From: Gammaproteobacteria bacterium
Lineage (GTDB): Bacteria > Pseudomonadota > Gammaproteobacteria > VBWC01
Direction: 5' to 3'
Length of the DNA: 64,000 bases
NCBI GenBank assembly: GCA_023266115.1
Contig: JAHFRU010000002.1
Coordinates: 1-64,000 of the forward strand
The position numbers were made by a program, and so were the translations under genes. This document shows, in pieces, positions 21,041 to 54,241 of the stretch. The notes under the pieces are model-generated. The model was not told the DNA's origin. It saw only the letters and a program-made list of their open reading frames with translations, and did no database searches. Positions within the stretch are counted from its first letter, which is position 1; each line of letters opens with the position of its first letter.

Positions 21041-22000
21041 TTACTGCTGGAGCGTGCCGTGGTGTTTTTTGAGTGATTTCAGCGTCTCGGGATGTTGTAG
21101 CAGATTGGACTTGATTTCCAGTATGTCCAGTTTGTCGATGTCGACGAAATGATTGCCTTTCAGAATACCGTCGATCGTGATCACGCAACCGTCGGCCAGT
21201 TTTCGGTATACCTTTCCGCTCAGTACGAATGATCTCGCCTGGTTGCCGAGACCAATCGTCATGATGATCTCTTTGCCGGGTGTGACCAGCGTTTCGGTTT
21301 TTTTATCGTCGTAATGCAGTCTTATGCTCTGGTTAGAAAGATCCAGTAGCGTACAGTGATGTGATTCATCATGGTCGGCGAAGCGGATTGTAACAGGGAC
21401 GCGTGTGCACAGGCGCTGGTGTTCACGTCGGTCAACGACAAGAAAAGTATTGGGCAGGATATCAATGATTGCGATTTCCTGGCCGGCGTAGTAGCCATCA
21501 TTGAGTATGGTTCGTCGACGTACTGTTGTATCGATTTGCGGTGCACCGCGATCCACGTAACACGAAAGCAGCGTCACGTTATTTCCGGCGCGGAACGGGC
21601 CACCCGGTCCTAGCGCTGCGCGGCGGTCGTAATCGAGGCTATTCTCAAGGCCGTCGATGTACGGTAACAGAAAACAAAAACTTTCTATCTTTTTTAACGG
21701 CAGGTATTTTCCGTTGTCGTCGAGCAGAATCGTATGCCGATTTCCCTCGTACTGACTGCGGATATCATTATGGGAGTAGACGACGTAGTCGTTGATTCCG
21801 TACCCGATCACCAGCGATTGGAGCACGATATCTTTTTGGAATTCCGGATAAAAGCGTACGCCGCCACCGATTGGAAAGTATTGCATCAGCTCGATCAGCT
21901 TGACGCCTTCGATAACCTCGGCCGACGAGCCCTTTTCCTGGCGGCTATTTCGCAGTAATTTCAACATGATTCGATCATGCGGGGGCAGTCCAATTCTCAC
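21041..22000 (-). CDS. PilZ domain protein, YcgR-like layout
   Basis: The 319-residue soluble protein has an N-terminal flagellar-brake-like region and a PilZ domain at about 190-300. PilZ proteins bind cyclic di-GMP through RxxxR and [D/N]xSxxG. Here the first motif is present (RLCTR, 196-200), but the second reads DLSNQS (220-225) with Ser in place of Gly, so binding may be weak or lost. The start is uncertain: GTG 22000 is the furthest, and ATG 21967 is a good alternative. It converges with the flavoprotein gene and is divergent from the VWA gene at 22250. Confidence 0.75.
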   Translation of the reverse strand: MRIGLPPHDRIMLKLLRNSRQEKGSSAEVIEGVKLIELMQYFPIGGGVRFYPEFQKDIVLQSLVIGYGINDYVVYSHNDIRSQYEGNRHTILLDDNGKYLPLKKIESFCFLLPYIDGLENSLDYDRRAALGPGGPFRAGNNVTLLSCYVDRGAPQIDTTVRRRTILNDGYYAGQEIAIIDILPNTFLVVDRREHQRLCTRVPVTIRFADHDESHHCTLLDLSNQSIRLHYDDKKTETLVTPGKEIIMTIGLGNQARSFVLSGKVYRKLADGCVITIDGILKGNHFVDIDKLDILEIKSNLLQHPETLKSLKKHHGTLQQ

Positions 22001-22249: not shown

Positions 22250-24154
22250 ATGGATCTGCGCTGGTGCTTCACTACTTCGGCGGTTTTCATAATGTTGTTC
22301 GGTGTCGGGCCACCGGTACTGGCATCCTCGGCGTTCGATAACAGTCCCCGCATTCGCGACGTGCGGTTCCTGATCGACGGATCGGGGAGCATGCACGCCA
22401 ACGACCCCGATAACCGGCGTGGCAGCGCGTTGCGCCTGATTTCCGGAATATTGCCGGCCGGCGCCCGTTCCGGCGTATGGATGGTCGATGACCAGGCAAC
22501 GAATGTTGTGCCGGTGATGGAGGTCAATAGTCGCTGGCGCCAAATGATGCGTGAGGCATCTGAAAGGCTGGTGCCGTCAGGTCTCACTGCGAACCTGGAG
22601 GAGGCGCTCCTTGTCGCCACAAAGGACTGGTCCGCTTCCGATCCACGATTCGATCGTCACCTTGTCATTCTGTTTGACGGGTACATTGAGAAGTCGGCAT
22701 CGGCCGTTGAAAACGAAGCCTCCCGGCAGCGTATTCTTGCAGAAATATTGTCGAATCTATCCGACGAGAAAGTCACAGTCCATACAATTGGCCTGTCCGA
22801 AGGCGTAGACAGCCAGCTGTTAAGGTCCTTGTCCGCAGCTACCAATGGACGCTTCGAATATGTGGAAAAGGCCGCGCTTCTCGAGCGAGCGTTTTTGAGG
22901 ATCGTGACAAATATTGTTGTTCCTAACGCGATTCCGACAGAGAACAATGAGATCGTCGTAGACGGGACGGTTGGCGAGCTAACGTTGGTAGCATTTCGCA
23001 AGAGCAAAGCCGACCAGGCGACATTAGTTAACTCTGCCGGCGAGAGCATCGATTTCAAGTTCCCGCCGACAAACGTTTCCTGGCAAAGAGAAGCCGCTTT
23101 CGAGCTTATAACGATCAAACGTCCCAAGGAGGGAGTCTGGAAGTTGATCTCGGGCGTTGACCCCGACAATCTGGTGATAGCGGACTCCAGTTTGGCGATT
23201 GACGTGACGGGGATTTCCGATAATCAGGGCGCGACGAGCGATATCATCGTTCAAACGAGAATTTTGAACAGCGGCAGACTGGTAGTCGATCAATCGTTTC
23301 TAGAGACGGTATCAGTAACGGTGTTGCATTTCGAAAATGACGAATTGCGTCAGCAATGGACAGTTTATGACGATGGAAAAAACGGCGATGAAAAGCCGGG
23401 TGATGGAATCTTTACACTTAGATTAGATAAGCCGTTGTCGCCGGGAGCGCATCATTTCACTGTAATTGCCGATGCTGCTAACTTTCGGCGCGCACAGCGC
23501 CGTTATGTCTCAGTCCAGTTACTGCCAGTTATAGCGACCATCGCGGTGGACCGGGGCGCAATAGCGGGGACCTATCGCGTTAACGTAATTCCGAATCGTG
23601 GCCATATATCACCAGAGACAATGACGGTCACGGCGACGATAAGCGCTGCCGGAATCCGGAAGCCACTACAGTTAGAAAAGATCGGAAAGGTTCTTTGGCA
23701 ACAGACGCTAAGTAGTATGCCGGACTCCGAACATCAGGAGATTGTTGTCACCGTAATCGGGAAGAACGCCCGCCTGGACGAACTGAAATACGAGCTCGAG
23801 CCACTAGCATTTGAAGGGATGAGACTATTGGTATCCGAAGCATCCATAGCGAGACGGCGTGACGACGTCAATCCAAAAAAAGCTAAAACACCTGTACCCG
23901 GTCGCGCAGATATGCCGGAGTACGTCGAATTCGAGGACGTTGGCTGGGGTACGGTGCTGTGGCAGGTAATGCTAGTTAACTTTTTGGTGGCAGGTGCGGC
24001 CTATGGTGGGTACCGATTGTGGCAAGCACGTATGCGGCAGGGCGACAACATGACTGTTAGTCGCAGTATGCCGGCGGGAAAGGATGATAACCATGTTGTT
24101 GAGCGTCATCAGGAATTGGCTAGCACTCCTGCCGAGGAAGAAAAGCGCGAGTGA
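22250..24154 (+). CDS. Exported von Willebrand factor A domain protein with C-terminal membrane anchor
   Basis: The 634-residue protein has a signal peptide (about 1-26), a VWA domain (about 37-215) with an intact metal site DGSGS (Asp43, Ser45, Ser47) plus a downstream TANLEEAL and ILFDGY, then beta-rich domains (about 230-540) and one membrane helix near the C-terminus (WQVMLVNFLVAGAAYGGYRL). It resembles the TIGR03503-type VWA family of gammaproteobacteria, whose role is unknown. VWA domains bind partner proteins through a metal ion. A 157-bp gap separates it from the membrane coiled-coil gene, and TerB follows, suggesting a joint envelope function. Base composition seems more AT-rich than the flanks. 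Confidence 0.8.
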   Translation: MDLRWCFTTSAVFIMLFGVGPPVLASSAFDNSPRIRDVRFLIDGSGSMHANDPDNRRGSALRLISGILPAGARSGVWMVDDQATNVVPVMEVNSRWRQMMREASERLVPSGLTANLEEALLVATKDWSASDPRFDRHLVILFDGYIEKSASAVENEASRQRILAEILSNLSDEKVTVHTIGLSEGVDSQLLRSLSAATNGRFEYVEKAALLERAFLRIVTNIVVPNAIPTENNEIVVDGTVGELTLVAFRKSKADQATLVNSAGESIDFKFPPTNVSWQREAAFELITIKRPKEGVWKLISGVDPDNLVIADSSLAIDVTGISDNQGATSDIIVQTRILNSGRLVVDQSFLETVSVTVLHFENDELRQQWTVYDDGKNGDEKPGDGIFTLRLDKPLSPGAHHFTVIADAANFRRAQRRYVSVQLLPVIATIAVDRGAIAGTYRVNVIPNRGHISPETMTVTATISAAGIRKPLQLEKIGKVLWQQTLSSMPDSEHQEIVVTVIGKNARLDELKYELEPLAFEGMRLLVSEASIARRRDDVNPKKAKTPVPGRADMPEYVEFEDVGWGTVLWQVMLVNFLVAGAAYGGYRLWQARMRQGDNMTVSRSMPAGKDDNHVVERHQELASTPAEEEKRE

Positions 24155-24311
24155 CGACATAGGCACACCTATTTCAGTATTGATCGGCGGCGTGATCGAT
24201 GTGTAGAGAATTGGATAAAATAGTAGGTTGCTCCCGCGACAGGAAAAAGGAGTACGTTGATCTTAATCGCTTGGACAACAATATAACAGTTGTGCGAGGA
24301 ATGGCGGTGTC

Positions 24312-25163
24312 ATGAAAATTAGTCCTGCTCTCATTGTCCTGCTGGTAGAACTGACTGTCGCGTTACTGGTGATCATCGGCGTAACAGCATATATCGCTTT
24401 CCGTCGCCACCGGCAGGTGACTGTTGCTCTCCAGATTATCAAACAGAAGCAAATGTCGTCCGAGCCAGTTCGTCAGGAAGAGTTGTTGAATGAACTCAGG
24501 GAGGCGTTAAGAGACGAAAACGATGAGATAAGACTCAAGGCCGAGCAGATTATTGAGTCGGAAAGGGTTTTTCATAACCGCGTTATTGATGCCTTTCGCA
24601 CGCGCGATCGTGAGGCGATCGTGAAACTTGATGATTGGGCAAAAGATCTTGTGGTGCCGTATCGATCCTTGATAAGCGATGTCGTCGGCAGCAGCGAAAA
24701 AGAAATGAAGGAGATAACAGAAAAGCTCGGCGAAATGGAGGAGGCAATGGAGGCGCTAGCGTCGGAGCGTGATCGAATGACCGAGGAACTCCGGAAAAAG
24801 GAACAAGAAGTCGAATCGATGGTGAGCGAGTATGTATCGGCGGTTAGAGATAAAGACCCGCGAAACGATTCTGGCGACGATGCCGCGCACGTGAATTCCG
24901 CGACCGGATCTGAGGGTGCTGGTGCGGTGTCAGCAGGGGAGAGTGCTGCATCGGCGAGCGATGCCGAAGTAACCGATGACCGGTTTTTAGATAAGGATAT
25001 TGAGGAGTTTCTCGAGCGGGAGGAGGCAGAGGTAGCCGGCGGAAACGCCGTGCCGACGGCGAAGAAAACGAGCAGGCTAGGTGATAGTCGTGGGGCAGCG
25101 GGATCCGGACAAACGGAAGCATCGCCCGTTAAAAACTCCGGCGACATCGAATCGAAGAGATAA
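24312..25163 (+). CDS. Membrane-anchored coiled-coil protein
   Basis: The 283-residue product has one N-terminal membrane helix (about 7-30, IVLLVELTVALLVIIGVTAY) and then a long charged region (about 45-185) with heptad-like leucine spacing, for example EELLNELREALRDENDEI and EKEMKEITEKLGEMEEAM. The tail (about 190-283) is disordered, rich in Ala, Ser, Gly and Asp. No family is recognised. The same layout occurs in membrane scaffold proteins. AGGAATGG precedes ATG 24312. It sits between the exported VWA gene and the TerB gene. Confidence 0.65.
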   Translation: MKISPALIVLLVELTVALLVIIGVTAYIAFRRHRQVTVALQIIKQKQMSSEPVRQEELLNELREALRDENDEIRLKAEQIIESERVFHNRVIDAFRTRDREAIVKLDDWAKDLVVPYRSLISDVVGSSEKEMKEITEKLGEMEEAMEALASERDRMTEELRKKEQEVESMVSEYVSAVRDKDPRNDSGDDAAHVNSATGSEGAGAVSAGESAASASDAEVTDDRFLDKDIEEFLEREEAEVAGGNAVPTAKKTSRLGDSRGAAGSGQTEASPVKNSGDIESKR

Positions 25164-25282
25164 ACGCGATAATATACACTGCGTATACGTCCACAGGCCA
25201 CGGCGATCAGGGTGGTCACCGTGCTTGGGCGAACAAGTGTTTCCGCGAACGTTTCCTGTAACGGCTGCCGCGAAAGGACAAC

Positions 25283-25739
25283 ATGCTCCAATCTATCAAG
25301 AGTTATTTTTCCCGGTATTTGCAACCGGGTGCGGCGCCGGAGGTTGGCGAACATTCTGTACGGCTGGCAACCGCGGCATTGTTGGTTGAGGCGATGCATG
25401 CCGATGACTCAATCACGGATGAGGAACGTCGTGCTGTTGAACGCTGTTGCGGGGATATTTGACCTGTCGCCGGTGGAAACCACTGAACTTATCAGCCTGG
25501 CCGAGCAGGAAGTCAGGGACGCAACTTCGCTGTACCAGTTCACCAGTCTCATCGATCAATATTTTCCGTTAGAAAGTAAGATCCACGTCATAGCACCACT
25601 CTGGAGGGTCGTGTTCTCCGACGCCTGCAAAGATAAGCATGAAGAGTCCCTCGTTCGTCAAATTGCCGATTTGTTGCACGTTCCGCACCGGGAATTTGTA
25701 CGTACCCGCGATTTGGTGCAGTCTGCGCCCTGTACATGA
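25283..25739 (+). pseudogene. TerB-family (tellurite resistance TerB-like) gene, split by a frameshift
   Basis: The reading frame from ATG 25283 (AAAGGA, 4 bp upstream) encodes a normal TerB N-terminus (MLQSIKSYFSRYLQPGAAPE, then RLATAALLVEAMHADDSIT and EERRAVER) and stops at 25460-25462. The second part continues in another frame from about 25443: AVAGIFDLSPVETTELISLA, then SLYQFTSLIDQYFPLESKI and ADLLHVPHREF, ending at TGA 25737-25739. Joining VER and AVAG restores the family sequence, so two bases (GC in a CGCGCT) seem to be missing at 25442-25445, or one base has been gained. TerB-like proteins are helical cytosolic metal-binding proteins. Whether the shift is real or a sequencing error cannot be told here. 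Confidence 0.75.
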
Positions 25740-52422: not shown

Positions 52423-52507
52423 GGAGGGGTTCCCGAGCGGCCAAAGGGATCAGACTGTAAATCTGACGGCTCAGCCTTCGGAGGTTCGAATCCTCCCCCC
52501 TCCACCA
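52423..52507 (+). tRNA. tRNA-Tyr (anticodon GTA)
   Basis: The 85-base gene has the acceptor stem GGAGGGG/CCCCTCC, D-arm CCGAGCGG, anticodon loop ACTGTAAATC with GTA, a long variable arm as in bacterial tRNA-Tyr, GGTTCGAATCC T-arm and an encoded CCA end. It is the first of three closely spaced tRNA genes, in the same order as in E. coli upstream of tufB. Confidence 0.97.
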
Positions 52508-52556
52508 GAGTTCCAGGTGGGGCTGAAACGCCAGAAGCTATCCCCCGGGCAAAATA

Positions 52557-52630
<74 letters not shown>

Positions 52631-52674
52631 TGTGGCGTTGAAGTATGCCGGCGGCGCAACGTTAGTGGAATTTG

Positions 52675-52750
<76 letters not shown>

Positions 52751-54165: not shown

Positions 54166-54241
54166 AGGCCAGTAGCTCAATTGGCAGAGCGGCGGTCTCC
54201 AAAACCGCAGGTTGGGGGTTCGATTCCCTCCTGGCCTGCCA
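54166..54241 (+). tRNA. tRNA-Trp (anticodon CCA)
   Basis: The 76-base gene has acceptor stem AGGCCAG/CTGGCCT, D-arm GCTCAATTGGCAGAGC, anticodon loop TCTCCAAAA with CCA, T-arm GGGGGTTCGATTCCC and an encoded CCA end. It lies between tuf and secE. The E. coli order has no tRNA here, so the position is a lineage feature. Confidence 0.97.

Follow-up and report, generated by a model that had tools for sequence, protein, structure and literature searches.

The cited sections of the papers on McaA and McaB of Magnetospirillum magneticum AMB-1 describe McaA as a protein that starts with a signal peptide, has its VWA domain in the periplasm, crosses the membrane with a single helix and ends in the cytosol (PMC9512821, PMC13170167, PMC13052382). 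The metal ion-dependent adhesion site (MIDAS) of McaA is required for its localisation, and McaB has a helix at its N terminus and a coiled coil that lies in the cytosol (PMC9512821, PMC13170167). The two proteins interact with each other in vivo; each also binds MamK, whose dynamics they alter (PMC13170167, PMC9512821). In the experiments that these sections report, no binding between soluble fragments of McaA and McaB was seen in vitro (PMC9512821, PMC13170167). McaA is 776 amino acids long, with a cytosolic part from about residue 392 in which the region 530-665 is functional and is needed for the McaA-McaB interaction (PMC9512821, PMC13170167). The 2022 paper presents mcaAB as specific to magnetotactic bacteria (PMC9512821), and the authors treat as open by what means McaA reaches its position and whether its contact with McaB is direct (PMC9512821, PMC13170167). 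Here we analyse a 64,000-nucleotide stretch of DNA from a gammaproteobacterium (contig JAHFRU010000002.1, positions 1 to 64,000; hereafter the window), in which a gene for a VWA protein has, downstream and in the same orientation, a neighbour that encodes a coiled-coil protein with an N-terminal membrane helix. New here is a conserved envelope pair with an unexpected membrane-helix signature, in a magnetotactic host; we found no published description of this pair in the titles and abstract openings of the part of the literature that was covered.

Conservation of the VWA and coiled-coil gene pair

The VWA gene (22250..24154, + strand) encodes a protein of 634 amino acids that matches PF00092 and, over its cut-off, NF041940, and that is part of the family alignment A1 described below. 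The coiled-coil gene (24312..25163, + strand) encodes its conserved partner of 283 amino acids. A search at class level returned relatives of the VWA protein in 93 of 274 genomes. From these, 75 regions were taken (matches with E values up to 1.2e-22, plus G139 at 1.8e-13), and addition of the locus of the sister species, L003, gave 76 loci; the weaker matches, nearly all confined to the VWA part, were left out. The corresponding set of 77 genomes comprises the 75 genomes, the window genome (G000) and G001, not all of them with an intact VWA domain. Two alignments were made from proteins chosen among the loci, with the window and L003 included: A1, with 38 rows of VWA-family proteins, and A2, with 35 rows of partner proteins.

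In 66 of the 76 loci we found a partner gene downstream of the VWA-family gene, in the same orientation; its product has a coiled coil behind a membrane helix at the N terminus. The denominator retains three loci that end too early for the partner to be judged (L073, L084 and L089), L103, with fewer than 600 bases left, and L086, in which the VWA gene is split into two pieces. A profile built from the L003 coiled-coil protein gave 55 matches among 4,264 open reading frames, one in each of 55 loci, and every one of them lay on the strand of the VWA-family gene, no more than 1 kb past its end. In 11 further loci the downstream gene encodes a Glu-bearing membrane helix and looks coiled-coil-like by eye. 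When the longest open reading frames were considered, 61 of the 66 partner frames overlapped the VWA stop codon or began within 60 nucleotides of it, 21 of them with a 4-nucleotide overlap, so that coupled translation of the two proteins is suggested. The pairing is far beyond chance, and the two genes make up one conserved unit. This bears out, as a conserved pair, the combination of an exported VWA protein and a coiled-coil protein anchored in the membrane that a preliminary description of the locus had put forward; the three same-strand features that it placed at 22250-25739 (the pair and a TerB gene) were likewise recovered. No constant gene cluster flanking the pair was found across the family loci.

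Comparison with the sister species gave a ratio of nonsynonymous to synonymous substitution rates (dN/dS) of 0.23 for the VWA gene and 0.20 for the coiled-coil gene, versus 0.09 for each of the neighbouring PilZ and metalloprotease genes; the two parts of the TerB gene, both short stretches, gave 0.29 and 0.58. The pair is thus under purifying selection, which is looser than that acting on the PilZ and metalloprotease genes.

The family was also followed beyond these loci. At the phylum level, where the top three candidates per genome were scored, A1 matched 103 of 398 genomes, and all matches running along most of the profile came from the class of the window. Pairs resembling McaA/McaB were sought outside the class and the candidates rejected, as the two best outside matches cover the VWA part only. 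Magnetochrome-bearing genomes outside the class have VWA proteins of other build, one with FHA-like repeats by eye (L152:9002-11422) and one with a cyclase-like C terminus by eye (L153:4038-7796). Viral contigs scanned with A1 gave 20 pattern matches and no relative, and a plasmid collection gave one partial match (38% of the query, 27% identity) from Aeromonas caviae, at a place with no annotated features. Three shorter family proteins, L111 (Aeromonas caviae), L155 and L156, show neither a VWA domain nor a partner directly downstream; the domain and the partner were perhaps lost together.

Membrane helices and metal site of the pair

The VWA protein begins with a signal-peptide-like N terminus (22250..22327, + strand; about residues 1-26), which was read from its sequence and from the hydrophobic N termini that precede the VWA domain in other A1 rows. 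The VWA domain follows (22358..22876, + strand; residues 37-209), matching PF00092 with an E value of 9.9e-10 and 39.3 bits, against a gathering cut-off of 23.8. Past this domain lie beta domains with weak similarity to hemicentin and CLCA proteins; the hemicentin family PF23560 matches the window protein below its cut-off. A single hydrophobic helix near the C terminus (23954..24019, + strand; about residues 569-590) is followed by about 44 residues, basic ones included. These features agree with the export and tail anchoring first proposed for this protein, and they predict a VWA domain in the periplasm and a C-terminal tail in the cytosol.

The coiled-coil protein starts with a hydrophobic helix (24324..24401, + strand; about residues 5-30), behind which basic residues lie; its middle part is helical, and its last 103 residues form a tail that is rich in acidic and small residues (22 Asp or Glu versus 12 Lys or Arg). 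The membrane anchor and the acidic tail of the preliminary description were thus seen again, and the tail is predicted, from sequence alone, to be disordered. Across A2 the tails differ strongly in both sequence and length. Comparison of A2 with solved structures and NCBIfam yielded scattered helical matches and nothing else.

Each of the two helices carries a near-invariant polar residue. The position of Asn577 in the helix of the VWA protein is Asn in 37 of 38 A1 rows, and that of Glu13 in the helix of the coiled-coil protein is Glu in 33 of 35 A2 rows. Counting towards the cytosol, the first basic residue is a median of 14 residues away from the Asn and 18 from the Glu, which would place the two at roughly equal depth, in the outer half of the bilayer, provided that the orientation is as predicted. 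This arrangement suggests a contact between the Asn and the Glu inside the membrane.

The metal site had been described as intact, and this holds for two of its three parts. The DxSxS motif (residues 43-47) and the loop-3 Asp (residue 143) are kept in the window protein, as they are in 36 and 38, respectively, of the 38 A1 rows. The loop-2 Thr of the MIDAS is replaced by Ala (residue 114). Thr occupies this position in 35 A1 rows, Ala is found only in the window and its sister species, where a Thr sits one residue ahead, and the remaining row has a gap.

The magnetotactic host and the neighbouring genes

Nine matches to PF18509 (magnetochrome) were found in the window genome, compared with none in 14 control genomes. 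Around the magnetochrome genes, NCBIfam models for MamO, MamB, MamM, MamT and MamZ matched over their cut-offs, and those for MamE, MamP and MamQ matched below theirs in the same stretches. This magnetosome gene cluster lies on contigs C35 (L183 and L184; G000:C35:398000-437000) and C16 (L182; G000:C16:30000-49000), and the window lies on contig C46. These magnetosome genes mark the source of the window as a magnetotactic gammaproteobacterium. The cluster includes an actin-family gene (C35:414364-415311; PF06723, E value 4.3e-20), a candidate MamK-like gene by its place there. Between this gene and a MamE-like gene lies a frame for a 530-amino-acid protein with a Lys/Ala-rich start (L183:14677-16269), for which no NCBIfam model matched at 1e-5; it is possibly a lineage-specific magnetosome protein.

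Among the 77 VWA-family genomes, PF18509 matched over its cut-off in four (G000, G001, G116 and G231), and in all four the pair and the magnetochrome genes are on separate contigs. G231 (locus L052) and G116 (L055) belong to a second magnetochrome-bearing gammaproteobacterial family that also has the pair, off its magnetochrome contigs. In the best tree the pairs of the two magnetotactic lineages stand apart; the starred branches of the tree force only one origin, and the pairs of both lineages may share it. No match to PF18509 over its cut-off was found in the 289 genomes of the class of G335, assumed to be Alphaproteobacteria.

Downstream of the pair, the TerB gene (25283..25739, + strand) is split over two frames. 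The frame from the ATG at 25283 stops at 25460, and a different frame carries the remainder to 25739; because of this frameshift, the open reading frame called at 25212-25739 has a false N terminus. The assignment as TerB-like is sound (PF05099, 70 bits), and the gene as it stands in the window is broken. In L003, whose VWA protein is 86% identical to that of the window, an intact TerB of 152 amino acids is encoded at the same place, and the window is 2 bases shorter than L003 within TerB, a difference that may come from a sequencing or assembly error. The window genome has another PF05099 match, on contig C6, in a longer frame of 285 amino acids.

A TerB gene is common among the 77 genomes (PF05099 in 70), yet it adjoins the VWA gene only in G000 and G001, both of one genus. 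For the other VWA-family genomes, many of whose contigs are short, no TerB among the matches listed lay within 30 kb of the VWA gene on the same contig. The converse comparison gave a similar picture: 20 further TerB regions, taken from elsewhere in this set of genomes, encode neither the VWA nor the coiled-coil family, and 18 of them hold a TerB that matches the one of the sister species. In two of the regions (L171 and L177) the convergent gene after TerB clusters with the TerB-adjacent gene of L003, an M48-type metalloprotease by eye. TerB seems to be part of a different chromosomal segment, next to which the pair is located in this genus. As a third member of the set it was rejected, on the grounds of linkage in a single genus, the absence of the pair from the 20 regions and the lack of TerD.

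On the other side of the pair lies the divergent PilZ-domain gene (21041..22000, - strand; 319 amino acids; PF07238, E value 1.8e-7), which had been thought a possible part of the set. We rejected it as well, since a relative occurs in just 2 of the 76 loci, one of them that of the sister species. Both TerB and PilZ are bystanders. Elsewhere in the window, tRNA genes for Tyr, Gly, Thr and Trp are located at 52423-52750 and 54166-54241. PADLOC gave no match for the VWA protein and weak matches for the other three proteins compared.

Possible roles of the pair and comparison with known systems

We propose, with about an even chance of being right, that the VWA and coiled-coil proteins form one complex that spans the inner membrane and couples a periplasmic reading to a cytosolic partner. 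The beta domains and the VWA domain of the first protein would be exposed to the periplasm, and the VWA domain would bind a ligand or landmark there via its metal site. The helix of this protein, with the conserved Asn, would pair within the bilayer with the partner's N-terminal helix, which has the conserved Glu, and the coiled coil and tail would then pass position or state to a cytosolic partner. By analogy with McaA/McaB, such a pair would most likely serve cytosolic machinery as a place marker in the envelope. Consistent with a contact between the helices, the Asn is absent from 8 of 14 VWA-family proteins that have no adjacent Glu-bearing partner, as compared with 3 of 63 that have one (Fisher p 1.8e-5, a value that ignores ancestry). 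The 77 proteins compared were those of the window, of 71 of the 76 loci (all except L073, L084, L086, L089 and L103) and of L111, L154, L155, L156 and L157. In these counts L094 is entered without the Glu and L091 with the Asn; inspection by eye and the alignment show the reverse for both, which would change the counts to 8 of 13 and 4 of 64.

The neglect of ancestry in this p value is one of several points that weigh against the proposed complex. The tree offers just five usable independent pairs (2.5 in the same direction, none in the opposite direction and 2.5 with no difference), which is not significant, so that ancestry may account for the association. In L066, L090 and L093, and by alignment in L091, a VWA protein without the Asn retains a Glu-bearing partner, and some Asn-bearing VWA proteins lack any partner. 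Seven of the 76 loci have no partner that we could find despite sequence downstream, which in L103 amounts to fewer than 600 bases. In the window itself the gap between the two genes is 157 nucleotides, the MIDAS Thr is lost, so that ligand binding by this protein may be altered, and a structure prediction for the VWA protein from two rows (window and L003) failed, with a mean predicted local distance difference test score (pLDDT) of 32.

The setting of the pair in a genome with magnetosome genes, an actin-family gene within their cluster, invites a narrower explanation, namely that the two proteins are true equivalents of McaA and McaB dedicated to magnetosome positioning via MamK. The gene and domain layout is that of McaA/McaB, some other members of the family (L051 and L082 among them) have long cytosolic tails like that of McaA, and all 4 of the 274 sampled genomes with magnetochrome over the cut-off carry the pair. 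However, these four come from two families, so that the co-occurrence is no proof of a link, and 63 of the other 270 genomes also carry the pair. Moreover, magnetochrome did not reach its cut-off in 73 of the 77 VWA-family genomes, the pair lies off the magnetochrome contigs in the 4 magnetotactic ones, and the tail of about 44 residues in the window protein leaves no space for an equivalent of McaA 530-665. We regard this dedicated role as quite improbable. The occurrence of the pair in many gammaproteobacteria that are not magnetotactic, without a constant neighbour, would suit a general envelope sensor that responds to stress or to an outer-membrane or peptidoglycan ligand and signals via the coiled coil, with no part in positioning; VWA domains are commonly ligand binders. 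Yet no signalling gene holds a fixed place beside the pair, and the strong variation of the coiled-coil tails does not suggest one fixed output. A sensor of this kind is possible, if somewhat unlikely.

The preliminary description favoured a different arrangement, a stress complex of the Ter kind in which the coiled-coil protein connects TerB in the cytosol with the VWA domain outside. In its favour, both the window and the sister species, the latter with an intact TerB, have the three genes side by side in one orientation. This linkage is restricted to 2 of the 77 genomes and to one genus, though 70 of the 77 have TerB; the pair appears in 0 of the 20 TerB regions, and the TerB of the window is broken. 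The expectation that the three families would be neighbours in other genomes therefore failed outside this genus. TerD (PF02342) had no match in G000, a genome that is 98% complete, and with this lack the system is not of the Ter type. We consider the Ter-like complex very improbable indeed. Relative to Ter systems, the likeness is that a TerB gene adjoins the pair in this genus; the differences are that their VWA protein is cytosolic while that of the window is predicted to be exported, next to a broken TerB and in a genome with TerD unmatched.

To return to the proposed membrane-spanning pair, its VWA protein has likenesses to several described families. All 38 A1 rows match TIGR03503 at an E value of 0.01 or better, but the window protein, matching with residues 227-536 after the VWA domain, stays under the curated cut-off (102.5 versus 305.6 bits). 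At an E value of 0.01, hemicentin (PF23560) matches 32 of the 38 rows and CLCA (TIGR00868) 22. Among solved structures, the A1 profile matched 4rck, a hypothetical membrane protein (8.7e-7), and then 6pyo, the VWA domain of CLCA (4.3e-6). In contrast to CLCA proteins, no protease domain appears in the Pfam matches; the likeness is one of domains, and orthology is not implied.

The closest analogue is McaA/McaB, to which the pair is likened by layout alone, not by sequence. As far as the cited sections describe that system, the two have in common a VWA protein with the DxSxS motif (though with the Ala at loop 2 in the window protein) and a single helix. Export of the VWA domain to the periplasm and a C terminus in the cytosol may be common to both, as the sequence of the window protein shows a signal-peptide-like N terminus and a C-terminal helix with basic residues after it. 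They also share a partner encoded by the adjacent gene, with a coiled coil and an N-terminal membrane helix (preceded by four residues), and a magnetotactic host. They differ in that the window protein combines a large periplasmic part with its tail of about 44 residues, which is too short to hold a counterpart of McaA 530-665; L051 and L082, by comparison, have about 290 residues or more after the helix. They differ also in distribution, as the present pair is not limited to magnetotactic bacteria (PF18509 in 4 of 77 genomes). Many ordinary gammaproteobacteria with a pair of the same layout would provide tractable hosts in which to ask what it does, and the near-invariant Asn and Glu give a direct mutational handle on how the two proteins associate. 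A broader view, which we think unlikely though worth stating, is that the pair is the widespread gammaproteobacterial form of a type of system, with McaA/McaB as a special case, in which a periplasmic location sensed by a VWA protein is relayed via an Asn-Glu contact in the membrane to a coiled-coil protein, so that cytosolic structures are positioned; magnetotactic bacteria would have adapted it for magnetosomes. If that were true, the contact in the membrane would explain why the soluble fragments of McaA and McaB did not bind each other in vitro.

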